Shown piece after piece: positions 18,766 through 33,740 of a stretch of 64,000 nt of DNA. The position numbers and the translations under genes are program-made. The stretch spans positions 5,518,001 through 5,582,000 of the forward strand of contig NZ_CP084058.1 of the NCBI RefSeq assembly GCF_020215645.1, written 5' to 3'. Origin of the DNA: Nonomuraea gerenzanensis (GTDB lineage Bacteria; Actinomycetota; Actinomycetes; Streptosporangiales; Streptosporangiaceae). The notes below the pieces were generated by a model. The model was given only the letters and a program-made list of their open reading frames with translations. It ran no database searches and was not told the DNA's origin. Numbering within the stretch: the first letter of the stretch is position 1; each line of letters opens with the position of its first letter.

Positions 18766-18849
18766 ATGAAGAAGAAGAAGCTCGAGGTCAAGATCAGGAA
18801 GCTTGAGAAGATCGAAACCACCATCAACCGCGGCGGAGCCAGCGGCTGA
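18766..18849 (+). CDS. 27-residue peptide, candidate RiPP precursor
   Basis: A short frame starting MKKKKLEVKI and ending INRGGASG. An AGGAG ribosome site ends 7 nt before ATG 18766; the alternative ATG at 18760 is too close to it. The N-terminal part is strongly basic and would form an amphipathic helix (alternating K/R, L/I and E), as expected of a leader bound by a PqqD-like domain; the C-terminal part is small and polar with a GG. It lies 94 bp upstream of an E1-like enzyme with an N-terminal PqqD-like domain and is followed by a membrane metalloprotease, the layout of a ribosomal peptide locus. It is not recognised as a member of a known precursor family. Confidence 0.6.
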   Translation: MKKKKLEVKIRKLEKIETTINRGGASG

Positions 18850-18868
18850 TCAACGATCACGCGGAACC

Positions 18869-18893
18869 GGTCCGGCCGTCGCCGGGCCGGTCC
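18869..18893 (+). promoter_or_regulatory. Hairpin between peptide and enzyme genes
   Basis: CCGGCC (18872-18877) can pair with GGCCGG (18885-18890) around a 7-nt loop, with further G-C pairs after one T-T mismatch. A hairpin between a precursor ORF and its enzymes often acts as a partial terminator, so that more precursor than enzyme is made. Stem strength is moderate in such GC-rich DNA. Confidence 0.3.
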
Positions 18894-18943
18894 CGCCTCC
18901 ACCGCGTGCAGAAGCACCACCGCGTGAAGGAGAGGGTGGCCGA

Positions 18944-20038
18944 GTGCGTCTGCCCAGGGTGAAACGGGTGCACCAGCCGTTCGTGCTGCCCGGGAACCGC
19001 ATCGTCATCGGGCTGTCCCAGTTCGGCGTGGCCTCCGAGATCGCCGACGACGAGGACGGCAGCATCGCCGCGATCCTGTCCTTGATGGACGGCACCAGGA
19101 CCGTCGATGACATCTGCGCCGACTTCGGGAAGACCCATCCCGGGGTGGACGACGACAGCGTGCGCGCCGTCATCGAGGACCTGGTCGGCAGCGGCTTCGT
19201 CGAGGACGCCGGCGCGCCCGTACCGGCGAACCTCAGCGAACGGGAGATCGCCAGGTACGAGTCGGCCCGCCACTTCTTCAGCTGGATCGACACCACACCG
19301 CGCACGTCGCCGCACGACGTCCAGTCCAGGATCAAGCAAGCCAGGGTGAGCCTGCTCGGCGTGGGCGGCACCGGGTCGGCCGTCGCGGCGGGGCTGGTGT
19401 CGAGCGGCATCGGGGCGCTGCGGCTGGCCGACTTCGACAGCGTCGAGGAGTCGAACCTGACCCGCCAGCTCCTGTACGCCGAGACGGACGTGGGCAGGTC
19501 CAAGGTCGGCCAGGCGGCCGCGCGGCTGCGGGCCATGAACGGCGCGGTCCTCGTGACCGGGAGCGAGACCAAGGTGACCGGCCCCGGCGACGTGGTGGAG
19601 CTGATGACCGGTTGCGACCTGTTCGTCCTGTGCGCGGACGAGCCGCACCCGGAGATCGTCCAGTGGACCAACGAGGCGGCCCTGCGCACCGGCACCCCGT
19701 GGTTCATGAGCCTCTACACCGGGCCGATGGTCGTCGTGGGCTCGTTCGTACCGGGCGAGACGGGCTGCTGGGCGTGCCTCGACCGGCAGGAGGAGGCGCG
19801 CAAGGAGAAGGAGCTCGGGCGGCTGCTGCCCGAGTCTCGGCCGAACGCGGTGGTCGCGGCCAGCGCGAACATCAGCGGCCACCTGTGCGCGCTGGAGGTG
19901 CTGTACCAGCTCGGCGGCCTGCCGGCGCAGACCCGCGGCAGGGTCTTCCACTGGAACCTGGCCGTCTGGGACCACCAGTACTTCATCGACGTCCCGCGTG
20001 ACGAGGGATGCCCGGTCTGCGGGCCGAAAGCACGGTGA
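18944..20038 (+). CDS. ThiF/E1-like adenylating enzyme with N-terminal PqqD-like domain
   Basis: A 364-residue protein. Residues ~1-90 resemble the PqqD-like winged-helix domain that binds leader peptides in ribosomal peptide pathways. Residues ~133-364 are a ThiF/MoeB/E1 fold: nucleotide loop LGVGGTGSAVAAG (138-150), LADFDSVEESNLTRQ (161-175) with the conserved Asp, Asn and Arg, and a complete zinc site from C275/C278 (GCWAC) and C356/C359 (GCPVC). Such enzymes adenylate a peptide C-terminus or an amide, as in microcin C7 (MccB) and azoline pathways. GTG 18944 was chosen because AAGGAG lies 11 nt upstream and the PqqD-like domain starts at once; the open frame before it is low-complexity. 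No ThiS/MoaD or YcaO partner is nearby, so a peptide target is most likely. Confidence 0.85.
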   Translation: MRLPRVKRVHQPFVLPGNRIVIGLSQFGVASEIADDEDGSIAAILSLMDGTRTVDDICADFGKTHPGVDDDSVRAVIEDLVGSGFVEDAGAPVPANLSEREIARYESARHFFSWIDTTPRTSPHDVQSRIKQARVSLLGVGGTGSAVAAGLVSSGIGALRLADFDSVEESNLTRQLLYAETDVGRSKVGQAAARLRAMNGAVLVTGSETKVTGPGDVVELMTGCDLFVLCADEPHPEIVQWTNEAALRTGTPWFMSLYTGPMVVVGSFVPGETGCWACLDRQEEARKEKELGRLLPESRPNAVVAASANISGHLCALEVLYQLGGLPAQTRGRVFHWNLAVWDHQYFIDVPRDEGCPVCGPKAR

Positions 20039-20042
20039 GCAC

Positions 20043-21293
20043 GTGACCACCCAGGCGGCCGAGGTCGGCGCGGGCAGCGTCGTACGGCTCCACCCGCTCG
20101 TCGTCCGTCCCGACGACGACGACCCGGAAGCGATCATCGTCGGCCGCCCCGACCTCGGCGAGTTCGCCGAGCTGCCCGCGGTGTGCGGGGAGGTGATCCG
20201 GCTGCTCGGCGAGGGACGGCCGGTCGCGGAGGTCGAGGCCGCGGTCGCCGCCGAGCACGACGTCGAGCTGGACGTGGCCGACTTCGTGGAGTCGCTGGCC
20301 GACCTGGACTTCGTGGCCGAGATCGATGGGCTCCCGCTGCCCGGACCGGCGTCCGCGCCGGTGGCCGGCCACTTCGAGGGCATCACCGAGCGGCACGTGC
20401 GATGGGTCTTCGCCCGGCCGATGAAGCTGCTCTGGCTCGCCGTCGTCGTGGCCGCGGCGCTGACCGTGCTGGTCAGGCCCGGCCTGTTCCCCCGCCACCA
20501 GGACTTCTTCTGGAGCGGGTACACCGGGCTGTCCGTGCTGGTCAACACGGCGTTCTTCTCCGTCGTCGCGAGCGTGCACGAGATGATGCACCTGATCGCG
20601 GCGCGTTCGCTCGGCGCGCCGGCGCGGATCGGGTTCGGCACCCGGCTGCACTACCTCGTCGTGCAGACCGACGTGAGCGCCATCTGGGGAGTCCCCCGGC
20701 GGCACCGCTACCGCGTGTACCTGGCCGGGATGGCCTCCGACGTGCTGCTCATCGCGACGATGCTGCTGGCCGTCGCGTACCTGCCGCTGCCCGATCCGGC
20801 CGAGGCGCTGCTGCGGGCCTTCATCCTGACCACGCTGCTGTGCCTGCCCCTGCAGGCGCAGATCTACATGCGGACCGACCTCTACTTCGTGCTCCGCGAC
20901 CTGCTGCGGTGCAAGGACCTGTTCGGGGACGGTCTGCGCTACGTCCGCTACCTGCTCGCCAGGGCGGTCGCCCCGCTCAGGAGGCCGGGCTCGCCGGTGA
21001 CCGACCCCACCGGTGACCTCGCAACGCACGAGCGCCGTGCCGTCCGGATCTACGCCGTCGCCCTCGCGCTGGGCAGCACCGTCACGCTGACCGTCTTCGC
21101 CCTGTACGGCGCTCCGATCATCGTCAGCGGCCTGACCAGCGCGCTGACGGCCCTGTGGGCCGGCTTCCACGGCGGCCCCGCCCTCGCCGCGGTCGATGCG
21201 GCGCTGCTCATCCTGGTCGAGGGCGGCATCCAGGTGATGTTCCTGGTGACGTTCTTCCGGACCCGCCGCCACTGGTTCCGCCGCTCTGAGTGA
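20043..21293 (+). CDS. PqqD-like domain fused to M50-type membrane metalloprotease
   Basis: A 416-residue protein. Residues ~30-95 resemble a PqqD-like domain (GEFAELPAVCGEVIRLLGEG). Then come several membrane segments with the zinc motif HEMMH at 179-183, and RTDLYFVLRDLL at 277-288 in the place of the third zinc ligand of site-2-type (M50) proteases. Related PqqD-M50 proteins are found in peptide loci, where they probably cut or handle the product in the membrane. It starts 4 bp after the E1-like gene, so the two are one transcription unit. GTG 20043 is the only close start; the ribosome site is weak, suggesting translational coupling. A further hydrophobic region near the C-terminus suggests about six to eight membrane spans. 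Confidence 0.82.
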   Translation: MTTQAAEVGAGSVVRLHPLVVRPDDDDPEAIIVGRPDLGEFAELPAVCGEVIRLLGEGRPVAEVEAAVAAEHDVELDVADFVESLADLDFVAEIDGLPLPGPASAPVAGHFEGITERHVRWVFARPMKLLWLAVVVAAALTVLVRPGLFPRHQDFFWSGYTGLSVLVNTAFFSVVASVHEMMHLIAARSLGAPARIGFGTRLHYLVVQTDVSAIWGVPRRHRYRVYLAGMASDVLLIATMLLAVAYLPLPDPAEALLRAFILTTLLCLPLQAQIYMRTDLYFVLRDLLRCKDLFGDGLRYVRYLLARAVAPLRRPGSPVTDPTGDLATHERRAVRIYAVALALGSTVTLTVFALYGAPIIVSGLTSALTALWAGFHGGPALAAVDAALLILVEGGIQVMFLVTFFRTRRHWFRRSE

Positions 21294-22553: not shown

Positions 22554-23471
22554 TCAGATCCAGCCCTGCTGCTTGGCGAGCAGGGCGCCCTGGAAGCGGT
22601 TGGCGGCGCCGAGCCGCTCCAGCAGCTCGGCCACGTAGCGCCGGTAGGTGCGCAGGCTCACGCCCATCTCCCTGGCCGCCACCTCGTCCTTGCGGGTGCC
22701 GGCCAGCAGGTACAGCACCCGCCGCTCGCGCGTGGTCAGGCTGGGCGCGTGGCAGGGCTCCAGGTCCTGAGCGTGCGCCCAGACGCGCTCGAACAGGTCC
22801 GCCATCGTCGCGACGACCCCGGCCTGGGAGATCATCAGGGCGCTCCGGCCGGCGCCCTCCGGCTCGCTGGGGACGAAGACCACCGAGCGGTCCACGATCA
22901 CCATCTGCTGCCCGTCGTCGTCGACCACCCGGTGGTGATCACCGGCGCGGTGCAGTTCGAGGCAGTGCTCCATGAGCGCCGGGTCGAGCAGGCTCTGCCG
23001 GGAGACGATGGTGCGCCGGCGGGCGCCGTCCTCGAGCCGCTGCAGGTGGGCGGGCAGGTACGACCGGTGCCGCTCGGGCTGCATGGCCAGCACCTCGCGC
23101 GCGTCGAGCGTCAGCGACCGGATGCGCTCGTCGATCCGGTCGGCGCCGTGGATCTGCTCGATGGTGACCGTGCGGTCGGGCCCGCGCTGCTGCGCGCTCA
23201 GCAGGTGCACCGCCTCCCACGCCGCCGAGATGCGGCGCTGCTCCGCGTTGGTCTCCAGCAGCCGTCGCCGGATCAGGCGGCTGATCCCGACCTCCGGCTC
23301 GACGGCGATGGGCCGGCCCGCCGGGTCGAAGCGGATGAGGCCGAGCGCCGAGAGCCGCTCCAGCGTGGCCCGCAAGCCGTCCGGATCGCCCGTCGCCGTG
23401 TCGCGGCCGCGCAGGAGGTCGCGGTAAACGTTCTCCTCGAAGTCGGTCAGTCCGAGACTGCTGAGGCTCAT
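22554..23471 (-). CDS. TrmB/LuxR-like transcription regulator
   Basis: A 305-residue regulator. The N-terminal ~75 residues (LTDFEENVYRDLLRG onward, ALGLIRFDPAGRPI) resemble a TrmB-type winged helix. The C-terminus carries a LuxR/GerE-like helix-turn-helix (SLTTRERRVLYLLAGTRKDE, then MGVSLRTYRRYVAELLERLG). It is divergent from the precursor gene at 23689, and the 217-bp gap between them holds a perfect 14-bp inverted repeat. Regulators of this type commonly sit beside secondary-metabolite and peptide genes, so it probably controls the peptide operon and perhaps itself. Confidence 0.82.
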   Translation of the reverse strand: MSLSSLGLTDFEENVYRDLLRGRDTATGDPDGLRATLERLSALGLIRFDPAGRPIAVEPEVGISRLIRRRLLETNAEQRRISAAWEAVHLLSAQQRGPDRTVTIEQIHGADRIDERIRSLTLDAREVLAMQPERHRSYLPAHLQRLEDGARRRTIVSRQSLLDPALMEHCLELHRAGDHHRVVDDDGQQMVIVDRSVVFVPSEPEGAGRSALMISQAGVVATMADLFERVWAHAQDLEPCHAPSLTTRERRVLYLLAGTRKDEVAAREMGVSLRTYRRYVAELLERLGAANRFQGALLAKQQGWI

Positions 23472-23521
23472 GTGGCTCCCGAGGTGACGAATGGGCCTCC
23501 CGCTGCTGGTGGTGCGGGAGT

Positions 23522-23555
23522 GACAGCAAGCTGCACGGCACTGCAGCTTGCTGTC
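23522..23555. repeat. Perfect 14-bp inverted repeat, candidate operator or hairpin
   Basis: GACAGCAAGCTGCA (23522-23535) and its exact reverse complement TGCAGCTTGCTGTC (23542-23555) are separated by six bases. It lies 51 bp upstream of the regulator start and just upstream of the likely promoter of the peptide operon, the expected place for the binding site of a dimeric LuxR-type regulator. A second, weaker dyad (CTCCCGC / GCGGGAG, 23497-23520) is adjacent. A terminator role is unlikely because neither neighbouring gene ends here. Confidence 0.6.
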
Positions 23556-23576
23556 GGACCCAGCGGCTTACTTCAG

Positions 23577-23605
23577 TTGATCATCCGTGGTTATTGTCCT
23601 GATGT
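23577..23605 (+). promoter_or_regulatory. Possible promoter of the disulfide-peptide operon
   Basis: TTGATC (23577-23582) and TGATGT (23600-23605) are spaced 17 bp and lie 84 bp upstream of the precursor start, directly after the 14-bp inverted repeat. The -35 fits well, the -10 only partly. Confidence 0.35.
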
Positions 23606-23688
23606 CGGCGGCGTTGATCACCCAAATCGCGCATGTCGGCTTCTGCCGGCATCCCCCACCGCCGGCTCGCACCAAGAGGAGGATCCCT

Positions 23689-23829
23689 GTGTTCCGTGCA
23701 CTCCATGAGATGAGCGACCGGCTTCTCGGCAGGCTGCTGCCCACCACCACGGCCGAGGCCGAGCCCTGCTGGTGGACCTCGACCGGCATCCGCTGCTGCA
23801 TCTACGCCGGCAAGACGTACTGCCGCTAG
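23689..23829 (+). CDS. 46-residue cysteine-rich precursor peptide
   Basis: A short gene with a strong ribosome site (GGAGG, 6 nt before GTG 23689), which favours this start over the internal ATG at 23710. The first ~24 residues form a helical leader (MFRALHEMSDRLLGRLL, then PTTTAEA). The tail after the AEA contains four cysteines (C27, C36, C37, C45), two tryptophans and two tyrosines, and ends TYCR. AEA (residues 22-24) fits the A-x-A pattern cut by signal-peptidase-type enzymes, and an S26 peptidase is encoded in the same locus. The following genes encode thiol-redox proteins and an exporter. I infer a secreted peptide of about 22 residues with two disulfides. I cannot place it in a known precursor family. 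Confidence 0.8.
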   Translation: MFRALHEMSDRLLGRLLPTTTAEAEPCWWTSTGIRCCIYAGKTYCR

Positions 23830-23855
23830 CGCCTCGGGCCGAACGGATCAGCGGC

Positions 23856-24377
23856 ATGGAGTACGTCGCGCTGGCCGCCCGCTGCACCCTGGGAATCGTC
23901 TTCCTGGCGGCGGTGGCCGGCAAGGTGCGCGGGCGGGAGGCCTTCGCGGCGTTCCGGCGATCGATGCCGGCGCTCGTCCCGCTGTGGCGGGGCCGGGTGC
24001 CGGCCGCGCTGCCCGTCGCGGTGGTCGCCGTCGAGTCGGCCACCGTGGTGCTGCTGACGGCGGAGTCCACGGCACCGGCCGGGCTGGTCCTGGCCGGTGC
24101 CGTGCTGCTGGCCTTCTCCCTCGGCATCCGGCACGCGCTGCGCTCGGGCAGCCGGGTCTCCTGCAACTGTTTCAGCACCTCGTCGGCGCCGCTCGGCCGC
24201 AGGCACCTCGTCCGCAACGCCGGCCTGATCGCGGTGGCCGTCACCGGCCTGGCGGCCTCGGGCGCGGGCACGCACGCGCATCCCGCCGGAGCAGTCCTGG
24301 CGCTCGCCGCCGGTGGCCTGATAGCGCTGCTCGCCGTCTTCACCGACGACCTCACCGACCTGTTCGCGGCGCGCTGA
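23856..24377 (+). CDS. MauE/DoxX-like redox membrane protein
   Basis: A 173-residue membrane protein with four hydrophobic segments and the motif SCNCF (C103, C105), typical of MauE. In methylamine dehydrogenase maturation MauE works with MauD to form disulfides in the small subunit. Here it follows the cysteine-rich precursor by 26 bp and precedes a TlpA/MauD-like protein, so it probably relays electrons to and from the oxidoreductase that oxidises the peptide. ATG 23856 is the first start after the precursor stop that gives a complete first membrane helix. Confidence 0.82.
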   Translation: MEYVALAARCTLGIVFLAAVAGKVRGREAFAAFRRSMPALVPLWRGRVPAALPVAVVAVESATVVLLTAESTAPAGLVLAGAVLLAFSLGIRHALRSGSRVSCNCFSTSSAPLGRRHLVRNAGLIAVAVTGLAASGAGTHAHPAGAVLALAAGGLIALLAVFTDDLTDLFAAR

Positions 24378-24421
24378 ACCGAGCTGTTCAAGCCGTGCCC
24401 GCTCGACCGTAAGGGACGCCG

Positions 24422-24958
24422 ATGTCCTTCCTCGTGGCCGCCGTCGTCTTCGTCGGCGTGCTGAGCGCCGTCAACCTGTTCCTGCTCCTGGCCGTGATCC
24501 GCCGCCTGCGCGAGCACGCGAACGTCCTGCGGCACGTCACCGCCCCACCCGCCTTCACCCCGCCGGGCACCCGGCTGCCGGGCTTCACCGCGACGGACAC
24601 CACCGGCGCCGCCGTCAGCCGCGCCACGCTCGGCGCCGGCGGCGGCACGACCGTCGTCGGCATGTTCTCCACCGACTGCTCCGCCTGCGACGAGCACCTG
24701 CCCGCCTTCGCCGAGCGGGTGCGCCACCTGGGCCGGGACCGCGTCCTGGCGCTGGTGGTGGGCGGCGGGCCGAAGGAGGCGACGTTCACCGCCGCCCTCG
24801 CGGACCTCGCGGCCGTGGTCACCGAGGAGCGCGACGGCCAGATGTACACGGCCTTCGGGCGCCCGCCGTTCCCCGGCTTCTACCTCGTGGACGGCGAGGG
24901 CGTCGTGACGGCGTCGGCGCACTCCACATCCGAGCTCCCGATCCCCGCGCACGCCTGA
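24422..24958 (+). CDS. Membrane-anchored TlpA/MauD-like thiol oxidoreductase
   Basis: A 178-residue protein with one N-terminal membrane anchor (MSFLVAAVVFVGVLSAVNLF) and a thioredoxin-like outer domain containing the active-site pair C86-S-A-C89 (STDCSACDEH) and the cis-proline region PPFPGFYLVDGEG. It would make or shuffle disulfides outside the membrane. With MauE it forms the redox pair of the peptide locus. It ends 5 bp before the exporter gene. Confidence 0.84.
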   Translation: MSFLVAAVVFVGVLSAVNLFLLLAVIRRLREHANVLRHVTAPPAFTPPGTRLPGFTATDTTGAAVSRATLGAGGGTTVVGMFSTDCSACDEHLPAFAERVRHLGRDRVLALVVGGGPKEATFTAALADLAAVVTEERDGQMYTAFGRPPFPGFYLVDGEGVVTASAHSTSELPIPAHA

Positions 24959-24963
24959 CCGGC

Positions 24964-26814
24964 ATGGCGAACCCCACGCTCGGGCGGATCCGCGTCGCCG
25001 CCGCCCTCGCCTGGACGGCCCATCCGGCGGCGGCCGTCGGCGCGGCCCTCCTCGGTGTGCTGGCCGGGGTGGCGCCGGTCGCGACCGCCTGGCTGACGAA
25101 GCTGGTCCTCGACGCCATCATCAGGGGCGACGGGTTCGCCGCGCTGGCACCGGCGGCCGGCGGGCTCGCCGTCGCCGGGCTGGCGGTCATCGTGCTGCCG
25201 CACGTGTCCGACTACGCCACGGCGCAGTTGCGCAGGTCGCTGCGCCTGCTCATCTACGACCGGCTGTTCCGGGCGGTCAACCGCCATCCCGGGCTGAGCC
25301 GGTTCGAGACCCCGGGCTTCCACGACACGCTGCGGCTGGCGTACGAGTCGAGCCACAACGCGCCGGACCGCCTGGTCGTCGGCGCGCTGGCGATCGGCCA
25401 GGCGCTCATCACCCTCGCGGGCTTCGCCATCAGCCTGGCCGCCGTCAACCCGGTCATGGTCGCCGTCATCGTCGTCGCCGCCCTGCCTGCCGCGCGCATC
25501 GAGCTGATGCTCAGCCGCAAGCGCGCCGAGGTGATGTGGGACATCACCCCCGCCATGCGCCGCCAGGTGTTCTTCGGCGACCTGCTCACCCGGCCGGAGG
25601 CGGCCAAGGAGGTGCGGCTGTTCGGCCTGGGCGACTACCTGCGTACCCGGATGCTGGACGAGGTCAGCGGCATCAACCGCGCCGAGCGCGACGTGGACCT
25701 GCGCGCTCTGCGCAGCCAGGGCGTGATGGCGCTGCTCGGGAGCGTCGTGGCCGCCGGCGGGCTGCTGTGGGCCATCCTCAGCGCCGCCTCGGGAGGCATC
25801 AGCGTGGGCGAGGTGACGGTCTTCGTCGCGGCCGTCGCGGGCGTCCAGACGGCGCTGACCGCGATCGTCAGCCAGTGGGCGGACGCGCACAACGCGCTGC
25901 TGATGTTCGGCCACTACACGGAGGTGGTGGCGGCCGAGCCCGACCTGCCGGTGCCGCGCGAGCCCGCCGCGCTGCCCGCGCTGCGCGACGGGATCGAGCT
26001 GCGCGACGTGTGGTTCCGCTACAGCGACGAGCACCCCTGGATCCTGCGCGGGGTGGACCTGTTCGTCCCCGCAGGCCGGACGGTGGCCCTCGTCGGGGTG
26101 AACGGCGCGGGCAAGAGCACGCTGGTCAAGCTGCTGTGCCGGATGTACGACCCGACCAAGGGACAGATCACCTGGGACGGGGTGGACCTGCGCGACGCGA
26201 GCCCGGCAGACCTGCGCGGGCGGATCGGCGCGGTGTTCCAGGACTACATGGACTACGACCTCACCGCCGCCGAGAACATCATGCTGGGCGACCTGACGGC
26301 CGACCGCGACCGGGTCCACGACTCGGCCCGCCGGGCGGGCGTGCATGAGACGGTCACCGCGCTGCCGCGCGGCTACGACACCATGCTCAGCCGCCTGTTC
26401 GGCGACCGCGACGAGCAGGCCGGGGTCTCCCTGTCGGGCGGGCAGTGGCAGCGGCTGGCGCTGGCCCGCGCGTTCATGCGGCAGCGCCAGGACCTGCTCA
26501 TCCTGGACGAGCCCAGCTCGGGCCTCGACGCCCAGGCCGAGCACGAGGTCCACACCAGCCTGCGGGCCTACCGGGGCGACCGCACGAGCGTGCTGATCTC
26601 GCACCGGCTGGGCACCGTGCGCGCCGCCGACCTCATCGTGGTGCTGAGCGAGGGGCGGATCGCCGAACGCGGCACGCACGACGAGCTGATGGCCCTGGGC
26701 GGTGAGTACGCCCGGCTGTTCACCCTGCAGGCCGACGGCTACGGGACTCCTTCGGAGGCACCGGAGGACAACTTCCGTACGACCACACCCAGTACGCGAT
26801 CGGCCGGCACGTAG
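24964..26814 (+). CDS. ABC exporter of the peptide locus
   Basis: A 616-residue half-transporter: a membrane domain (residues ~1-330) and an ATPase with Walker A GVNGAGKST, signature LSGGQWQRLALARAF, Walker B LLILDEPSSGLD and H-loop LISHR. There is no N-terminal C39 peptidase, so leader removal must be done by another enzyme, which fits the S26 peptidase next door. It starts 5 bp after the redox gene and is the last gene of the plus-strand operon. Its 3' end overlaps the convergent peptidase gene by 76 bp. Export of the matured or unmatured peptide is inferred. Confidence 0.88.
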   Translation: MANPTLGRIRVAAALAWTAHPAAAVGAALLGVLAGVAPVATAWLTKLVLDAIIRGDGFAALAPAAGGLAVAGLAVIVLPHVSDYATAQLRRSLRLLIYDRLFRAVNRHPGLSRFETPGFHDTLRLAYESSHNAPDRLVVGALAIGQALITLAGFAISLAAVNPVMVAVIVVAALPAARIELMLSRKRAEVMWDITPAMRRQVFFGDLLTRPEAAKEVRLFGLGDYLRTRMLDEVSGINRAERDVDLRALRSQGVMALLGSVVAAGGLLWAILSAASGGISVGEVTVFVAAVAGVQTALTAIVSQWADAHNALLMFGHYTEVVAAEPDLPVPREPAALPALRDGIELRDVWFRYSDEHPWILRGVDLFVPAGRTVALVGVNGAGKSTLVKLLCRMYDPTKGQITWDGVDLRDASPADLRGRIGAVFQDYMDYDLTAAENIMLGDLTADRDRVHDSARRAGVHETVTALPRGYDTMLSRLFGDRDEQAGVSLSGGQWQRLALARAFMRQRQDLLILDEPSSGLDAQAEHEVHTSLRAYRGDRTSVLISHRLGTVRAADLIVVLSEGRIAERGTHDELMALGGEYARLFTLQADGYGTPSEAPEDNFRTTTPSTRSAGT

Positions 26815-27188
26815 CCGTACACCCGTGAGTCGGCGCTCGACGTGCCGTCGCCCACGACCACCAGCGCGCCCTCGGGCACCCTCGCACCGGGCCCCGCCGC
26901 CACCGCCTCCACCACGTCGGCCGGCACGGGGTCGCCGGGCAGCGCGGTCACCCGCTTGATCGCCCAGGGCGGCGCCGGAGGGCCCGTGCCCCACCCCGAA
27001 GGCCGCGTCGACTCGAACACCACCACCCGGCCCCGCCGCACCGCACCGGTCCGGCGGACCAGCACCCGGTCACCCGGACGGTAGGCCGGCGCCATGCTCA
27101 CGCCGCTCACCTGGACGACGACGAGACCGCGCCGGGCGACGACCGCGAGGACGACGAGCACGGCGAGGGCGATGAGCGCGTACCACAC
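26739..27188 (-). CDS. S26-family signal peptidase
   Basis: A 149-residue protein with one N-terminal membrane anchor and the S26 marks: catalytic serine in QVSGVSMAPAYRPGD (S31), catalytic lysine in AIKRVTALPGD (K78) and the conserved GDGTSSADSRVYG box. It is short, as in dedicated rather than housekeeping signal peptidases. Its gene overlaps the exporter gene tail to tail (26739-26814). It is the best candidate for cutting the precursor after the AEA at residues 22-24. Regulation separate from the peptide operon is implied by its opposite strand. Confidence 0.86.
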   Translation of the reverse strand: MWYALIALAVLVVLAVVARRGLVVVQVSGVSMAPAYRPGDRVLVRRTGAVRRGRVVVFESTRPSGWGTGPPAPPWAIKRVTALPGDPVPADVVEAVAAGPGARVPEGALVVVGDGTSSADSRVYGYVPADRVLGVVVRKLSSGASEGVP

Positions 27189-27280: not shown

Positions 27281-29560
27281 TCAGCCCTCCGGCAGGATCC
27301 GGACGGTCGCCGTGGCGGGAGCGCTGACGCGATACCCCCCGCCGGGCAGCAACCTGACGGTGACCGTGCGCCCGGCGGGCGCGTGCCCGCGCCGGTCGAG
27401 CACCCGGACCGGCTCGGTGGCCGTGGTCCGCCCGGCCGCGAACGTGACGCGCCCGTCGAGCCGCGCGTAGTCCCGCCCGGCCCGCGTGTCGCGATCGTCG
27501 TGGACGACGTAACGCACGGTCAGCTCCTCGTCCGCGGAGTGCGCCGGCCGGACGAACGTGAGGACCCCGTCGGTGCCGGGCTCGCGGGCGTGCGACGTGG
27601 CCTCCACGGAGACGCGCGGCAGCGGGTCGACGGCGTTGCGCCGGGTGGCCAGGCGCGGCACCCCGGCGGCGCCGATGCTGTGGTGGTAGAACTCGGCCAT
27701 CGCCTCCGGGGTGTTGTGGTTCCAGGTGCGCACGCCCCACGGCATGGCCAGCGTCCAGTCCGGCTGGGCCGCCTGCTCGGCCTGCGAGGGGAAGACGAAC
27801 GTCTCACCGATGATCATCGGCTTGCCGTCGCGTTTCGCGATCGACCTCGCCTGCTCGTAGTGGCGGGCCGCGTAGCCCTCGGGGTCGTAGAAGTCCACCG
27901 ACAACACGTCGTAGTAGTCCCTGCCGGGGCTGAAGGAGGACCAGTCGTTCGCGTCGTACTCGGCCAGGCCGCCGTCGAGCCCCTCGTAGCGGTCGAACTT
28001 CGGGTCGCCGTCGGCCCAGCCGTAGTCGTCCGGCAGGTCCTGGACGTTCCACACCCAGACGATGTTGGACAGCCCCTTCTCGACCTCCATGTAGTCGTGG
28101 AACATCCGGTACAGCCCCGCGCCGCCGGTCAGGCCGGGCCGGCCGCCCCACCAGAACACGTGCTGGTTCATCTCGTGGAAGGGCCGCAGCAGCACGGTCA
28201 CCCCGGCGTCCTCGAGCTGCTGGAGGTAGCGGGCGTACTCGTCCATGCGCAGCTTCCAGTTGCGGTTGAGCGGCGTGCCGTCGGTCATCAGCTCCTTCCA
28301 CTGATCGGCGTAGAGGTAGCTGAAGATCCGGTTCGGGCCGGGCAGCGTCTCGTGCGCCTGGTCACCGCCCCAGCCGCCCTCGCGCTCCTGCGCGACGGTG
28401 TACTGCGGGGGCGAGACGTGGAACATGATCTGCACGAGGCCGCCGCCGGCCCACTGCCGCCTCACCTCGTCGATCATGTTCTGCCGGTACGGCACGGTGC
28501 CGCCGGTCAGGAAGTCCGCGCTGTACAGGGCCGGGTAGACGCCGAACTGGTTGGCCACCCGCTGGTGCAGCACGTCGGCGTTGCGCGGGTCGGCGTACGA
28601 CTGGTCGTGGTGCATGGCCGAGAGCATGCCCTTGCCGGTCAGGCCCTTGAGGTAGGCGGTCACGTCCACGCGCGGCGGCAGGTCGCGCACCCGCACCCGC
28701 AGGCTCACGTCCTGGTCCACCGTGAAGGTGATGCCGTTCTGGTGCAGCTTGAGCTGCTGGAGCCGGACGAGCGTGCTGCCGTTGCCGGCGAAGTCGCCCT
28801 TGGGCGCGAACCGGTCGCCGGAGGAGGGCAGGACGGCCGCGTTCTGCGAGGTGTAGCGCGCCTGCACGATCCGCGCGCCGGCCGGCAGCACGGCGGCGTC
28901 GTTCAGGGCGGTGACGAGGTTGCCCACCCGGTCGGCCGTCAGCGCGCCGCCGGGGAAGGAGACCTCCGGCACGTACGGCTTCTCATCGAAGACGAGCTCG
29001 ATCTCGTCCACCGTGACGCGTCCCTCCGAGACCTCGCCGACCTGGTTGACATAGAGGGCGAACGACGTGATCCCCGCCGTGTTGATCGTCCCCGTGCCTG
29101 TCTTGGGGGTGAACGACCCGATCGGGATCGTCAGGTGCTGCGGCTGCGCCGAGGCCGGGTCGAAGCCGGGCACCGCGTTCAGGTGCGCCTCGTAGGAGGC
29201 CCCGTCGGACAGCTGCAGCAGCACGTCCTGGCCGGGCGTGGCGTTGGCGACCCACAGCTCGACGGCTCGCAGGCCCGGCCAGTAGCCGTTCACCGGCCGG
29301 GAGCGGCCCGAGTAGCCGCCGGTCAGCGTGTAGGCCAGCTCCATGGCGTTACCGAGCCCGGCGCCGAACGGTGAGGGCACGAGCGTGGCGGTGTTCGTCC
29401 CGCCGTTGGGGTTGGGTGCGTACGCGGCCGACAGGCGGGCGCTGTCGGCGTAGGCCGAGAAGTCGTCCAGCTTCTCCCGGTAGGCGTCCGCGGCCTGCGC
29501 GGCCGGGACGGCCACGCAGAGCGCGAGAAGGGCCAGCAGGACGGTGAGCACTCTGCTCAT
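27281..29560 (-). CDS. Secreted GH26 beta-mannanase with carbohydrate-binding and Calx-beta modules
   Basis: A 759-residue secreted enzyme. A signal peptide (MSRVLTVLLALLALC..., cut near AQA) is followed by a ~150-residue beta module (DDFSAYADSARLSAAY) related to the C-terminal module of the GH5 enzyme upstream, then the GH26 barrel with the acid/base segment VLLRPFHEMNQ, WWGGRPG and the nucleophile segment MIIGETF, and a Calx-beta-like C-terminal domain (TVRYVVHDDRDTRAGRDYA). It would cut beta-1,4-mannan outside the cell. ATG 29560 overlaps the stop of the preceding gene (ATGA). It is the third gene of the minus-strand operon that starts at 33438. Confidence 0.86.
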   Translation of the reverse strand: MSRVLTVLLALLALCVAVPAAQAADAYREKLDDFSAYADSARLSAAYAPNPNGGTNTATLVPSPFGAGLGNAMELAYTLTGGYSGRSRPVNGYWPGLRAVELWVANATPGQDVLLQLSDGASYEAHLNAVPGFDPASAQPQHLTIPIGSFTPKTGTGTINTAGITSFALYVNQVGEVSEGRVTVDEIELVFDEKPYVPEVSFPGGALTADRVGNLVTALNDAAVLPAGARIVQARYTSQNAAVLPSSGDRFAPKGDFAGNGSTLVRLQQLKLHQNGITFTVDQDVSLRVRVRDLPPRVDVTAYLKGLTGKGMLSAMHHDQSYADPRNADVLHQRVANQFGVYPALYSADFLTGGTVPYRQNMIDEVRRQWAGGGLVQIMFHVSPPQYTVAQEREGGWGGDQAHETLPGPNRIFSYLYADQWKELMTDGTPLNRNWKLRMDEYARYLQQLEDAGVTVLLRPFHEMNQHVFWWGGRPGLTGGAGLYRMFHDYMEVEKGLSNIVWVWNVQDLPDDYGWADGDPKFDRYEGLDGGLAEYDANDWSSFSPGRDYYDVLSVDFYDPEGYAARHYEQARSIAKRDGKPMIIGETFVFPSQAEQAAQPDWTLAMPWGVRTWNHNTPEAMAEFYHHSIGAAGVPRLATRRNAVDPLPRVSVEATSHAREPGTDGVLTFVRPAHSADEELTVRYVVHDDRDTRAGRDYARLDGRVTFAAGRTTATEPVRVLDRRGHAPAGRTVTVRLLPGGGYRVSAPATATVRILPEG

Positions 29561-30963
29561 GCAGGCAAGGTCCACTTCTGGTTAGCGTTGGTGGTGCAGC
29601 TCCAGATCTGCAGCGCGGTGCCGTCGGCCGGGCTCTGCCCGGTCGCGTCCAGGCACTTGCCGGTGGCGGCGCTGGTCAGGCGCTGGGTGGCGGAGTCGTA
29701 GGTCCACCGCTGGTTGGCGTTGCCGCTCGTGCAGTCCCAGATCTGCACCCTGGTCCCGTCGGCGCCGACCCCGCCGGCCACGTCCAGGCACTTGCCGAGC
29801 GCGCGGATGGTCCCGTCGGAGCCGACCGTCCACGCCTGCGCGCTGCCGTTGGCGTCACAGGTGTAGAGCTGCACCTTGGTGCCGTTGGCCGGGTTGGCGG
29901 CGGCGACGTCGACGCACTTGCCGCCGAGCCCCCTGATCTTCCCCGTACGGGTGGCGCCGCCTCCTGCCGTGATCGTGAACTCGCCGCGGTTGTACACCCG
30001 CGGCCCGAAGTAGCTCGCCTGCACGCCGGCGTTGGTGTTGTACGCCGGGTCGGTCAGCCACTCCGCCCACACCATGAACCAGGTCCACCGCGGCTGGGCG
30101 TTGAGCAGCGCCGGGCTCGGGGTGCGGCCCACCTCGGCCAGGGAGATCGGCTTGCCGCCCGCGACGTCGAGCATCGCCTGGTAGTCGGAGGCGGAGGGCT
30201 CCAGCTTGGCCCACACGTCGAGGGAGGCCACGTCGGCGTACGACGAGCCCGGCCAGTATTCGCCGATGGAGCCCATGGAGACGTCCTTGACGTTCCAGAC
30301 CCACACGAGGTTCGTCAGGCCCTGCGAGGTGTAGTAGTCGTAGGTGATCTGGTACAGCTTGCGGCTGCCGTTGGCGCCGGGCCGGCCGCCCCACCAGGAC
30401 CAGCCGTCGTTCATCTCGTGAACGGGCCGCCACAGCACGGGCACGCCGGCGTTCTGGAGCTGGCGCAGGTAGGGCAGCGCCTCGGCGAGCCGGCTCTTGT
30501 AGGCGTTGTTGAGGCTCGTGCCGTTGGTGACGAGCTGGCTCCACTGGCTGTCGGACAGGTGGCTGAGCACGCCGCCGGAGTCCCAGCCGCAGGTGGGGCC
30601 GGTGGTGGGCGGGCACATGTGCCAGGTCAGGGCCACCACCGAGCCGCCCTGCCACTGGCGGATGGCCTCGTTGACCATCGTCTGGCGGCTGGAGACGTCG
30701 GCGGCGGCGAACAGGAAGTCGCCGCCCCACAGGCCGGGGGTCTGGCCGGTGATGCTCTGGGCGACGCGGGTGTACTTGGTGGGGTCGCTGTTGGGCTCGC
30801 GGTTGTGCTGGCCCGACAGGGTGTACTGGCCGGAGATCCGGTTCAGGAAGCCGATCAGGTCGGCGCGGGTGGCGGCGGGGAAGGCCAGTGCGGGCGTGGC
30901 CAGGCTCGCGACGGTGGCCAGGGCCACCGCCAGGGTCAGTAACAGGCTGCGGGGGGTGCGCAT
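29557..30963 (-). CDS. Secreted GH26 beta-mannanase with ricin-B (CBM13) domain
   Basis: A 468-residue secreted enzyme: signal peptide to about residue 27 (PALA cut site), GH26 catalytic domain with WRPVHEMNDGWSWWGG (acid/base Glu) and ISLAEVGRTP (nucleophile Glu), then a ricin-B trefoil of three repeats with QxW-type motifs (SAQAWTV, NQRWTY, NQKWTL). GH26 enzymes are mostly endo-beta-1,4-mannanases. It sits 12 bp after the GH5 gene and overlaps the next GH26 gene by 4 bp, so all three secreted enzymes are made together. Confidence 0.9.
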   Translation of the reverse strand: MRTPRSLLLTLAVALATVASLATPALAFPAATRADLIGFLNRISGQYTLSGQHNREPNSDPTKYTRVAQSITGQTPGLWGGDFLFAAADVSSRQTMVNEAIRQWQGGSVVALTWHMCPPTTGPTCGWDSGGVLSHLSDSQWSQLVTNGTSLNNAYKSRLAEALPYLRQLQNAGVPVLWRPVHEMNDGWSWWGGRPGANGSRKLYQITYDYYTSQGLTNLVWVWNVKDVSMGSIGEYWPGSSYADVASLDVWAKLEPSASDYQAMLDVAGGKPISLAEVGRTPSPALLNAQPRWTWFMVWAEWLTDPAYNTNAGVQASYFGPRVYNRGEFTITAGGGATRTGKIRGLGGKCVDVAAANPANGTKVQLYTCDANGSAQAWTVGSDGTIRALGKCLDVAGGVGADGTRVQIWDCTSGNANQRWTYDSATQRLTSAATGKCLDATGQSPADGTALQIWSCTTNANQKWTLPA

Positions 30964-30975
30964 GGGGGTTCCCTC

Positions 30976-33438
30976 CTACGGGGCGGGATAGGCGGTGACC
31001 TGGTCGACGGTGAGCGTGCCGGTGCCCGGCGCGCCGCCGACGTAGAACGAGAGCTGCTCGAAGCGGGTCAGGTCGAGCGGGCCCGCGCCGGCCCAGCTCG
31101 GGTGGTCGAACGCGGTGAACGGGATGCGGGCCACGCCGTCAGGCACGGCGTCGAGGGTGTGCTCGAAGTAGACGCCGCCGGTGACGAACTGCACGGTGAT
31201 CTTCGCGGGCGCGCCCGTCTGGGCGAGCCGCAGTTCCAGGCCGTGCTGCCCCCACACGTCCAGGGCGGGGGAGAAGGTACGGGTGACGCCCGCGTAGCCG
31301 GCGCCGCCGAGCGTGTAGTCCAGCCGCAGGTCCTGGCCTGGTGCCAGCGACGGGGTGATCTGGTCGCCGCCCGGGTTGCGCACGTAGGCGGCGGCGAGCT
31401 GGGCAGAGTCGGCGTAGCCGGTGAAGTCGTCCACGACGGCGGGGGCGGTGGGCAGCGGGCGGGTGGCGAAGGAGGACACCGCGCCGTGGGTGCGGCCGGC
31501 CGCGTTGACCGCCGTGACCCGCCAGTGGTAGGTGAGGCCGGGTTCGAGCTCCCCGGCCGGCCGGTGCTCCGCCCCGGTGATCGCGGTGGCCGACAGCACG
31601 GGGTCGCTCAGGTCGGCGTGCTCGGAGACGGTGAGCGTGTAGTAGCCCGCGCCCTCGGCCGGGCTCCAGGTGAACGCCGGGGTGCCCAGCACGTCACGGG
31701 CGTCAGGAGCCGGGGTGAGCGGCGCGGGGATGGCCGGGGGCGCGGAGACGGGGGCCGGGTCGGCCGACCAGAGGGTGGCGCGGGTCAGCCCCTCGCCGCC
31801 GCTCCACAGCACGCGGACGTGACCCGCGCCGCCGGCGTCCGCCGTCACCTGTCCGTCGCCGCTCTCGTGCCGCACGGTACGCCAGGCGGCGCCGTCGCCG
31901 GAGACCTGCACCCGCACGCGGGGCCGGCCCGCCACGTCGAAACGCACCCGCTGCAGCCCGGGGCGGCTCCACGACATCCAGGCCTCGCCCCGCGCGACGG
32001 CCGCAGCCGGGGTGAGGGTGACGTTCCCGTGGCCGTCGGCCAGGTCCGTCGTCTGCAGCGGATCGACGAGCACGACCTGCGAGCGGGTGACCCGCACCGG
32101 CTCCGAGGCCGTGCCGCGCCGGCCGTCGCGGTCGACCGGGACGACCCGGTAGGTGACCTCGCCCGCCGCGCCCGCGTCCAGCCACGGCGCCTGGTTGTCG
32201 GTGAGCAACCCCTGGTGGGCGGCGCTCCACCGGCCGTGCTGCGAGCGCTCGACGACGTAGCCGGCGGCGCCGGCCGTGCCGCGCCAGCGCAGCTCGTTCA
32301 GCCCGCCGCGCTTGTCCACCTGGACGAGGAGCGGCGGCCCGACGCGGGCGGGACGGCCACCCGATGGGGAGACCTGCCCGGCGAAGGCGACCTGCGCCTC
32401 GACGGAGGCCCGCATGCGCTCGTCGTCGCCGGGATAGTGCAGGGTGAAGCCGTCGTCGTGCTGTACGAAGCCGCCCCGGTCGTGGTGACCGAACAGCGAC
32501 CACGACAGCATGCCGGTGACGTTGCGGTCCGCGGCGAGCGGGGTGAGCAGCTCCTCGGTGGCCGCGGTGGAGGCGTACTCGCCGGCGAGGTAGACCTTGC
32601 CCGCGCCGGTCACCCTGGCCGCGTCGGCGCCGACCCGCTCGGTGGTCGGCGGGTAGTAGTGCACGTCCACGATGTCCACGCCGGGCGCGGCGAGCGTGTC
32701 AGGGTCGATCTCGAAGCGGCGCCCCGCCGCGATGAGCTGGCGCGGCGCCCACTTCCTGAACGCGGCGGCGTTGCGGTTGATCCAGTCGAGCGTCATGCCC
32801 TCCAGCTCGTTGCCGAACTCCCAGGCCATGATCGTCGGGTCGGCGTTGTAGGCCCTGCCCGTCAGCGGGTTGACCCGGCTCATCACATGCTCGGCGTAGG
32901 CCTGGTAGTCGGCGATCACGCGCTCGTCGGTGTAGAACGCCTCCGACGGCAGGCCGTAGGGGTCGGTGAAGTCGCGGTGACCGCCGTGGTAGTAGGACCA
33001 CTCGTCGGTCAGCGGCAGGATCAGGCGCAGGCCGATCGAGCCGGCGTAGGCGATCGCGTAGTCCACCGTCGCGAACGCCGCCTCGTTGAAGCCCGCCTGC
33101 TTCGAGGGCAGGATCGACAGCGGGTTGCCGGTGGAGGCCAGCATGTGCGAGCGCACCACGGTCATGCCCATGGCCTTGGCCGTGTCGAGGGCGTCCCTGA
33201 TGCGGAAGAACGTCGGGTAGGCGACGCCGCCGACGTTCTCGTCCAGGCCGAGCCAGTAGATGTTGGTGCCGGCGAAGCGGAACGGCTTGCCATCGAGGCT
33301 GAGGCGGGAGTCCGCGCGGGTCACGAACCGGGTGTTCAGCGAGCTCAGGTCCGCCGGGGTGGGGGCAGCGTGCGCGGGCGGGGCCAGGGAGAGGGCCAGG
33401 ACGACCGCGGCGAGGCTCGCCCATCGGAGGGAACGCAT
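30976..33438 (-). CDS. Secreted GH5-type beta-mannanase with fibronectin-III and C-terminal binding modules
   Basis: An 820-residue secreted enzyme. After the signal peptide (to AHA near residue 25) comes a GH5-like barrel with FAGTNIYWLG, the acid/base motif WEFGNELEG and the nucleophile segment VYLAGEYAS, as in GH5_7 endo-mannanases. Then follow fibronectin-III-like regions (TPAFTWSPAEGAGYYTLTV) and a C-terminal module (DDFTGYADSAQLAAAY) homologous to the N-terminal module of the GH26 at 27281. ATG 33438 is used because it gives the signal peptide; the longer frame to 33540 adds non-signal sequence. It is the first gene of the secreted enzyme operon. Confidence 0.86.
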   Translation of the reverse strand: MRSLRWASLAAVVLALSLAPPAHAAPTPADLSSLNTRFVTRADSRLSLDGKPFRFAGTNIYWLGLDENVGGVAYPTFFRIRDALDTAKAMGMTVVRSHMLASTGNPLSILPSKQAGFNEAAFATVDYAIAYAGSIGLRLILPLTDEWSYYHGGHRDFTDPYGLPSEAFYTDERVIADYQAYAEHVMSRVNPLTGRAYNADPTIMAWEFGNELEGMTLDWINRNAAAFRKWAPRQLIAAGRRFEIDPDTLAAPGVDIVDVHYYPPTTERVGADAARVTGAGKVYLAGEYASTAATEELLTPLAADRNVTGMLSWSLFGHHDRGGFVQHDDGFTLHYPGDDERMRASVEAQVAFAGQVSPSGGRPARVGPPLLVQVDKRGGLNELRWRGTAGAAGYVVERSQHGRWSAAHQGLLTDNQAPWLDAGAAGEVTYRVVPVDRDGRRGTASEPVRVTRSQVVLVDPLQTTDLADGHGNVTLTPAAAVARGEAWMSWSRPGLQRVRFDVAGRPRVRVQVSGDGAAWRTVRHESGDGQVTADAGGAGHVRVLWSGGEGLTRATLWSADPAPVSAPPAIPAPLTPAPDARDVLGTPAFTWSPAEGAGYYTLTVSEHADLSDPVLSATAITGAEHRPAGELEPGLTYHWRVTAVNAAGRTHGAVSSFATRPLPTAPAVVDDFTGYADSAQLAAAYVRNPGGDQITPSLAPGQDLRLDYTLGGAGYAGVTRTFSPALDVWGQHGLELRLAQTGAPAKITVQFVTGGVYFEHTLDAVPDGVARIPFTAFDHPSWAGAGPLDLTRFEQLSFYVGGAPGTGTLTVDQVTAYPAP

Positions 33439-33740
33439 GGGGCTGGGCCTTTCTCGGATTCGGCTGAACGATTGCTTTACCGAATAAGTGCCCTGAAGAT
33501 AGAACCGGCGCGACAACGATGTCAACGATCCGAAACCCACAAGACACGGTGGCTTAACGTCAGCCTGACCCGGTTCAGCGGCTGCCCGCTCCCGGGACGT
33601 CCGTGCGGGCTCCGAGCCGCCTCCGCGACCTGCTGGTTTAGCAAGTAACTAAAACGGTCTAGACACGTTCAGGTGGGAATCGCTACCTTGTCGGACGTCT
33701 GGGGGCGTTTGTCCCATTGTCATGACCAAGGAGCAGACGG
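33439..33740. promoter_or_regulatory. Divergent control region of the mannan cluster
   Basis: A 302-bp gap between the secreted-enzyme operon (left) and the beta-mannosidase gene (right). It is AT-richer than the genes. It contains the operator-like site at 33649-33662 and, nearer the GH5 gene, a weaker near-palindrome CTTTACCGAATAAG (33475-33488). No ORF with a ribosome site lies inside it. Confidence 0.6.
33649..33662. promoter_or_regulatory. LacI-type operator, copy 1
   Basis: CTAAAACGGTCTAG is a near-palindrome with a central CG, the form bound by LacI-family repressors. A close copy (CTAAACCGCTCTAG) lies upstream of the sugar importer at 37311. It is placed 79 bp before the beta-mannosidase start. 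Confidence 0.6.

Follow-up and report, generated by a model that had tools for sequence, protein, structure and literature searches.

Gene content of the locus

The stretch of DNA analysed here, the window, comprises 64,000 nucleotides of Nonomuraea gerenzanensis (contig NZ_CP084058.1, positions 5,518,001 to 5,582,000) and holds, between its positions 22554 and 27188, a short precursor peptide gene accompanied by genes for two membrane redox proteins, an exporter, a protease and a regulator. The peptide gene (23689..23829, plus strand) begins with GTG six bases after an AGGAGG ribosome-binding site (23677..23682) and runs through 46 codons to a stop at 23827-23829. Its predicted product consists of VFRALHEMSDRLLGRLLPTTTAEA, the predicted leader (23689-23760), followed by EPCWWTSTGIRCCIYAGKTYCR, the predicted core of 22 residues (23761-23826), with four cysteines at residues 27, 36, 37 and 45. 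The calculated mass of the leaderless core is 2592.117 Da if it holds two disulfides ([M+3H]3+ 865.046) and 2596.148 Da if it is reduced. The leader ends in P-T-T-T-A-E-A (23740..23760), an instance of a P-x3-A-x-A motif whose A-E-A occupies residues 22-24, and cleavage by an S26-type protease is predicted after codon 24. The start, the four cysteines in the tail, the core of about 22 residues and the A-E-A had all been picked out in an earlier sequence-only reading of this DNA and are borne out here, the A-x-A being conserved in the leaders of relatives; the locus with its precursor peptide gene is real.

Downstream on the same strand lie a gene for a MauE-like membrane redox protein (23856..24377; PF07291, 75.2 bits) with a C-x-C motif (24162-24170), a gene for a TlpA/MauD-like, membrane-anchored protein of thioredoxin fold (24422..24958; PF00578, 30.5 bits against a cut-off of 26), whose C-x-x-C takes the form C-S-A-C (24677-24688), and a gene for an ATP-binding cassette (ABC) exporter with transmembrane and nucleotide-binding domains (24964..26814), recognised by Pfam and placed in the clade of the family described below by profile A2. 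No C39 peptidase domain is among the Pfam matches of this exporter. Convergent with the exporter gene, and overlapping its 3' end on the minus strand, is the gene for an S26 peptidase with one N-terminal transmembrane (TM) helix and a Ser/Lys dyad (26739..27188; TIGR02227, 67.3 bits, cut-off 47). For these four genes, Pfam and NCBIfam agree with the positions and identities previously proposed. The divergent regulator (22554..23471, minus strand; PF00196, 26.2 bits) is of the LuxR (GerE) type and has orthologues of 59-71% identity at four other peptide loci (L045, L048, L049, L317); of its former description as TrmB/LuxR-like the second half stands, the first finding no Pfam support at E<=0.05. 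The supposed lack of lanthipeptide, lasso and radical-SAM enzymes holds for the Pfam matches of the six genes at 22554-27188, the genes beyond having been scanned in part. The window peptide matches no Pfam or NCBIfam family at E<=0.05, and nine of its relatives give only weak NCBIfam matches, far below the cut-offs, and none in Pfam.

A family of peptides with a conserved leader

Eight database relatives are 71-93% identical to the window peptide over 98-100% of its length, the nearest (P0002, 93%) coming from Nonomuraea monospora, and the ratio of nonsynonymous to synonymous substitution rates (dN/dS) against four relatives is about 0.4-0.8. That the gene might be a chance open reading frame (ORF) was rejected on the grounds of this conservation across relatives. 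Matches at E<=1e-5 occur in 25 of 297 genomes of the host's taxonomic family, its own included, while a tally of 119 of the same genomes at E<=0.1 includes chance matches. Among 40 well-ranked loci mapped by tblastn, a homologous exporter gene is present at 38 and an S26 gene at 37. An alignment of 33 peptides chosen by the analyst has D10, P18, A22, A24, C27, C36, C37 and C45 as invariant columns, so that the conserved leader, A-x-A site and four cysteines expected by the sequence-only reading are found together in these chosen relatives.

Exporter profiles widen the picture. At E<=1e-140, with up to eight candidates scored per genome, at least 66 of 150 genomes of the order carry an exporter of the family, with a score gap between 630 and 485 bits, and up to seven such exporters occur in one genome. 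Across the phylum, at least two of 396 genomes have one, a lower bound from three scored candidates per genome; these are the window's own genome and G319, whose taxonomic family, to judge by identical peptides on named contigs (L127/L282 and L154/L272), includes Streptomyces and Embleya; with the peptide profile at E<=1e-3, matches came from 32 of 297 genomes of that family. Forty loci new to the analysis were then chosen by the exporter profile alone and scanned for short ORFs whose leader is free of Cys and ends in P-x3-A-x-A, with at least four cysteines in the core. A pattern peptide is present at 33 of them, or 32 after removal of L223, where the match is a chance ORF only, and 24 (L223 among them) have MauE, TlpA and S26 besides the pattern match. 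The absence of a conserved short Cys-bearing ORF beside homologous genes had been named as the result that would refute the proposal, and the 32 loci leave it unrefuted.

The survey further took in 80 of a larger number of named contigs, which span Nonomuraea, Streptomyces, Lentzea, Micromonospora and, from other phyla, two metagenome-assembled genome (MAG) contigs; the exporter is of family level on 73, and a pattern peptide accompanies it on 54 of the 73. Of the 19 pattern-negative loci, 16 (all except L254, L312 and L319) were rescanned with a looser pattern, and ten of these hold, by eye, a likely peptide with a variant leader. The seven contigs with a weaker exporter (482-530 bits) serve as a built-in negative control, and none has MauE, TlpA, S26 or a peptide, although one (L325) spans 3.9 kb only. 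Four loci with a family-level exporter (L207, L243, L254, L319) have no MauE, TlpA, S26 or convincing peptide nearby. On the Komarekiella MAG contig, which we take to be cyanobacterial (family and phylum names beyond the record titles being our own attributions), an eight-Cys peptide lies between TlpA and S26 (L303, 4931-5122), and a Chloroflexota MAG contig has a pattern peptide at L314 (701-859), with no MauE found; provided the bins are correct, the two suggest that the gene set has spread between phyla.

In total, 197 peptides with 110 non-redundant cores were collected from about 160 fetched loci, some of which are the same place fetched twice. In the first set, 89 of the 93 peptides have the P-x3-A-x-A motif. 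When every fetched locus is scanned, with overlaps that make some places count twice, the leader and cysteine pattern gives 206 matches in 2.70 Mb near family exporters against 6 in 0.67 Mb elsewhere, and three of these six are themselves family peptides; in the 64-kb window it returns the window peptide and one chance ORF. Mean pairwise identity is higher among the leaders (46%, or about 33% once the three positions fixed by the pattern are set aside) than among the core residues other than cysteine (24%; 1395 pairs). Tandem peptides are present at family loci, among them a further complete locus of the window's genome (L092, G000:C1:8328000-8346500), which has tandem peptides of 8 and 6 cysteines and a SARP regulator. 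With a short precursor, a conserved leader, a variable core and dedicated genes alongside, the family belongs, in the broad sense, with the ribosomally synthesised and post-translationally modified peptides (RiPPs). By these comparisons, actinobacteria hold a large, barely described family of such gene sets, of which the window locus is one member.

Cysteine parity and the composition of the gene set

Cysteine number ranges from 4 to 12 per peptide across the family, so the conserved Cys-bearing ORF foreseen for a class of four-cysteine peptides exists, with four cysteines as merely one subtype. In the first set of 93 peptides, which left out L135 and L137 as having no neighbours, the count is even in 92, and none of the 93 leaders contains a cysteine; the later surveys required Cys-free leaders. 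The profile behind the first set fixes four cysteines and not the parity of the others, and the later pattern demands only at least four. All 71 non-redundant cores have an even number of cysteines, whereas the counts of Y, W, G, S, T, R, P, D and K come out even in 28-44 of these cores; with the named contigs included, 109 of 110 cores are even. Removed before the count of 71 were L041 (five cysteines) and three matches judged by eye to be chance (L222 6481, L223 9332 and L224 12459, the last odd), and further removed before the count of 110 were L262 6569 (odd), L292 884, L312 4469 and L319 1523. At the exporter-anchored loci, the count is even in 47 of 48 matches, and in 45 of 45 after removal of three judged chance. 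The one odd member counted is L318 1261 (nine cysteines), and an odd member outside the count, L300 4627 (five cysteines), came from the looser scan. An even number of cysteines, all in the core, is the mark of a disulfide peptide, and the parity rule strongly favours complete pairwise disulfide bonding as its simplest reading. Two individual peptides deserve mention: L137 looks like a genuine orphan of the family with eight cysteines, and the five-Cys member at L041 (8001-8171), which overruns the stop of its near-identical relatives, is possibly decaying; among the full-length peptide loci of the first set, L041 alone yielded no exporter.

The catalytic residues of the accompanying proteins are retained. 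Homologues at the loci keep the MauE C-x-C in 62 of 62 cases, the first TlpA cysteine in 66 and the second in 65 of 67, and the S26 Ser and Lys in 73 of 73, so that S26, which had been counted as part of the set, is a regular member of it. Composition was tabulated over the 72 full-length loci of the first set (short L044, L058, L061 and L072 left out; L041 counted in the four-Cys class): the set is complete at 47 of 49 loci whose cores have six or more cysteines, against 11 of 23 four-Cys loci. By profiles, L141 and L146 have both MauE and TlpA, though these were missed by tblastn.

A proposed maturation route and its alternatives

The locus very probably serves to make a mini-peptide that is ribosomal in origin, carries a leader and is locked by disulfides, and it belongs to a large family in which comparison of sequences shows a conserved P-x3-A-x-A leader, a variable core of even cysteine number, recurrent S26 and TlpA, usually MauE, and one exporter clade. 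In the proposed route, an amphipathic leader would dock the peptide on membrane-bound S26 and TlpA/MauE; TlpA would oxidise the core cysteines, to two disulfides in the window peptide; MauE would re-oxidise TlpA and pass the electrons to the respiratory chain; S26 would cut after A-x-A, and the ABC exporter would release the product.

On which side of the membrane this might happen had been left open by the sequence-only reading, which foresaw a secreted peptide cut by a signal peptidase; charge topology now puts the enzymes, by prediction, at the cytoplasmic face. Lys and Arg are more numerous behind the TM helix than in front of it in all 66 TlpA sequences scored (medians 4 and 0) and in 52 of the 57 S26 sequences that passed the TM filter, with the reverse in three of the latter and ties in two, 16 of the 73 remaining unscored; one LepB of the same genome has, by eye, the textbook opposite arrangement. 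In 59 MauE sequences, for which a five-helix layout was assumed with the second and third helices unseparated, Lys and Arg number about 4.4 in the C-x-C loop and 5.9 in the first loop, against 0.0 at the N-terminus, 0.1 in the last loop and 0.5 at the C-terminus. By the positive-inside rule, the active sites of TlpA, MauE and S26 are thus probably on the positively charged, cytoplasmic side, and maturation may precede export. The leaders are amphipathic, with D at -15 in 63, R at -14 in 57 and R or K at -10 in 54 of 69 unique leaders, and, judged by eye, have no uninterrupted hydrophobic region of the Sec type. That oxidation and cutting occur at the cytoplasmic face before export is, on this charge pattern, about an even bet. 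A class matured wholly at that face, with a quinone-linked MauE/TlpA relay making two to six disulfides despite a reducing cytosol, a reverse-oriented S26, a leader like that of nickel superoxide dismutase (Ni-SOD) and export of a folded product through an ABC transporter devoid of a peptidase, is proposed more tentatively, as a possibility somewhat short of even.

Several observations weigh against this account. The MauE and TlpA pair is missing altogether from 7 of 23 four-Cys loci, against one of 49 loci with six or more cysteines (Fisher p=0.001, relatedness uncorrected), the lone exception being L066, with TlpA about 7 kb away; further loci are without MauE only. TlpA, S26 and a peptide occur without MauE within 6.5 kb at 9 of the 40 exporter-anchored loci and without MauE in reach at 10 of 80 named loci (6-kb flanks), several of these holding 6-12 cysteines, which means that not every locus encodes the proposed MauE step close by. 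Two of the 40 exporter-anchored loci have no other part of the set, and S26 was not found at L047, L051 and L052. The positive-inside rule gives a prediction of side only, and a similar N-terminus is seen in a TlpA encoded elsewhere in the genome (L191, an unrelated place), so the charge pattern may be a general trait of MauD-type proteins. The structure models, of low to moderate confidence, belong on the same side: that of the window peptide has a predicted local distance difference test (pLDDT) score of 64.6, with residues 31-46 at about 80, and neither it nor that of a six-Cys relative (73.5, residues 31-58 at about 80-91) finds a fold match in PDB at E<=0.001.

An obligatory role for MauE/TlpA was accordingly rejected, loci without the pair or without MauE appearing in all three surveys. 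In the named set, which shares some places with the first, the pair is absent at three of six four-Cys loci and at none of 48 with more cysteines (p=0.0008, again uncorrected for relatedness). The genomes of pair-less loci carry other MauE genes, and in that of pair-less L194 both MauE and TlpA accompany a second locus, one with six cysteines. Since the pair can be missing where four cysteines are retained, it cannot be the only source of disulfides, and its uneven presence indicates that the redox genes matter most where many pairings are possible. Of the earlier proposal that MauE/TlpA forms the disulfides, full pairing is strongly favoured by the parity rule.

The alternative that survives best, with a probability clearly below one half yet substantial, is that the reduced full-length peptide is exported first, and that oxidation by TlpA/MauE and the S26 cut take place outside the membrane. 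The core gene set fits this sequence of events equally well, and the outside is where housekeeping S26 signal peptidases, like most TlpA/ResA proteins, work. Against it stand the charge of TlpA (66 of 66), S26 (52 of 57) and the MauE C-x-C loop, which puts all three on the positive side, and a leader with conserved Asp and Arg in its middle and no Sec-type hydrophobic core.

It is improbable, though worth weighing, that TlpA/MauE instead preserves or rearranges thiols for export, in the manner of a reductase or isomerase, the disulfides forming spontaneously later. Four-Cys loci can lack both proteins (7 of 23) yet keep their cysteines, TlpA without MauE occurs, and MauE or TlpA is retained at 48 of 49 loci with six or more cysteines, as expected where mispairing matters; the same pattern, however, fits an oxidase that is aided by other oxidases at simple cores. 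Less probable still is binding of a metal or cluster by the cysteines, as in a metallophore or metal-delivery peptide: the spacing of the leader cut site does resemble the Ni-SOD propeptides of the same genome, but cysteines are even in 109 of 110 non-redundant cores and highly variable in spacing, no His is among the invariant columns, and a redox pair stands at most loci. Least probable, if only by a little, are other crosslinks made by an enzyme encoded elsewhere, such as an E1/ThiF-like protein (18803-20038, plus strand; over the TIGR03882 cut-off) and an overlapping PqqD/M50-like membrane metalloprotease (the two together 18803-21293, plus strand; both Pfam matches of the metalloprotease below cut-off) 2.4 kb upstream, because even cysteine counts are unexpected for thioethers or azoles, and a pair found at just three fetched loci besides the window (L055, L141, L257) cannot serve the whole family.

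Relation to described systems

The description of the locus as undescribed needs qualifying. The decRiPPter study of 2020 (PMC7794033) proposed three mauE-bearing Streptomyces families, one of them with mauD, as candidate RiPPs, with Cys-rich predicted precursors of at least eight cysteines and MauE/MauD as proposed modification enzymes, and its strict filter also required a transporter, a peptidase and a regulator. Those families are from Streptomyces only, whereas the window peptide has four cysteines and its relatives up to twelve; the main text of PMC7794033 does not contain 'S26' or 'signal peptidase', and its section 7 contains no leader motif, cysteine parity or topology. Relative to these parts of that text, the role of S26, the leader motif, the parity rule, the breadth of the family and the topology are new, and the present peptides are ribosomal modified peptides with partial precedent there. 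Paracoccus MauE, as cited in PMC7794033, was speculated to aid disulfide formation in the beta-subunit of methylamine dehydrogenase, the role of MauD being unclear; the window MauE is of the same protein family (PF07291), but the present set has no dehydrogenase subunit, and its substrate would be a short peptide. No other description of the family was found in the openly accessible literature, which omits most subscription papers and preprints. The interpretation given by the sequence-only reading is, taken as a whole, partly supported.

The leader resembles, suggestively only, the propeptide spacing of Ni-SOD. Two Ni-SOD genes are present in the window's genome (L160, L161), one of them next to a short S26 gene whose product has no obvious TM segment at its N-terminus. 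One Ni-SOD of this genome, beside an S26 gene, starts with MLARLLRPKHVASA followed by HCDLPCG, before which the cut presumably falls, giving P at -7 and A-x-A at -3/-1. Clean homology of the leaders was rejected: the leader hidden Markov model ranks one Ni-SOD seventh among 4665 ORF N-termini at E=1.2 and misses the second. The window S26 scores 31.5 bits against the SodX model TIGR02754, below the cut-off, and Ni-SOD is an enzyme, unlike the present peptides.

Class II or double-glycine bacteriocins (pediocin type, glycocins) are likewise small, with disulfides, an ABC exporter and sometimes a thioredoxin-like helper; their exporters carry a C39 peptidase that cuts after Gly-Gly. The present locus stands apart from them in having no C39 domain among the Pfam matches, a leader ending in A-x-A and a separate S26. 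Conotoxins, knottins and defensins share with the family a conserved leader and a variable core of even cysteine number, and some members have the same C-C-CC-C-C framework; they differ in that the present peptides are bacterial, have no Sec-type leader and find no meaningful sequence or fold match in PDB, where sequence searches gave two chance-level matches (E 0.52 and 1.2) and otherwise none. With four cysteines, the window peptide is not a knottin, which has six, paired C1-C4, C2-C5 and C3-C6. The six-Cys cores of L304, L307 and L309 (Lentzea/Kibdelosporangium), in which C-x6-CC is followed by three cysteines, are knottin-like by eye.

Neighbouring genes, regulation and possible role

The upstream E1/ThiF-like and PqqD/M50-like pair may be a RiPP cluster in its own right or play an ancillary part. 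No YcaO protein, as in thiazole/oxazole-modified microcins (TOMMs), is among the window ORFs scanned, which were part of the total, and PADLOC returned ATPase-type and E1-type matches only. On the other side, three adjacent minus-strand genes for glycoside hydrolases (27281-33540), a GH26 with a weak Calx-beta match, a GH26 with a ricin-B lectin domain and a GH5-family protein, may form a mannan-degradation cluster.

Regulators recur beside the peptides: the LuxR type at the window and four relatives, and SARP-like ORFs near 38 of 76 loci by neighbour clustering, which mixed real genes with shadow frames so that the SARP cluster alone was used; a BTAD domain is present in four of four SARP-like ORFs scanned. 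Tandem peptides, the presence of as many as seven exporters in a genome and the stronger conservation of leaders relative to cores suggest that the product is secreted and diversifying, much like bacteriocins. The SARP-type regulators and the variety of cores lead us to infer a role as a secreted bioactive natural product, bacteriocin-like or a signal.

For the actinobacteria, such a family would amount to a large reservoir of stable disulfide scaffolds that annotation of short ORFs easily misses, and a compact gene set able to install disulfides in small peptides within bacteria would have practical value. Should oxidation truly be cytoplasmic, it breaks the usual rule that bacterial structural disulfides are made outside the cytoplasm, and the cell biology of MauE/MauD becomes directly testable. 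Should maturation take place wholly at the cytoplasmic face, the family would be a bacterial counterpart of the diversification of conotoxins or defensins.

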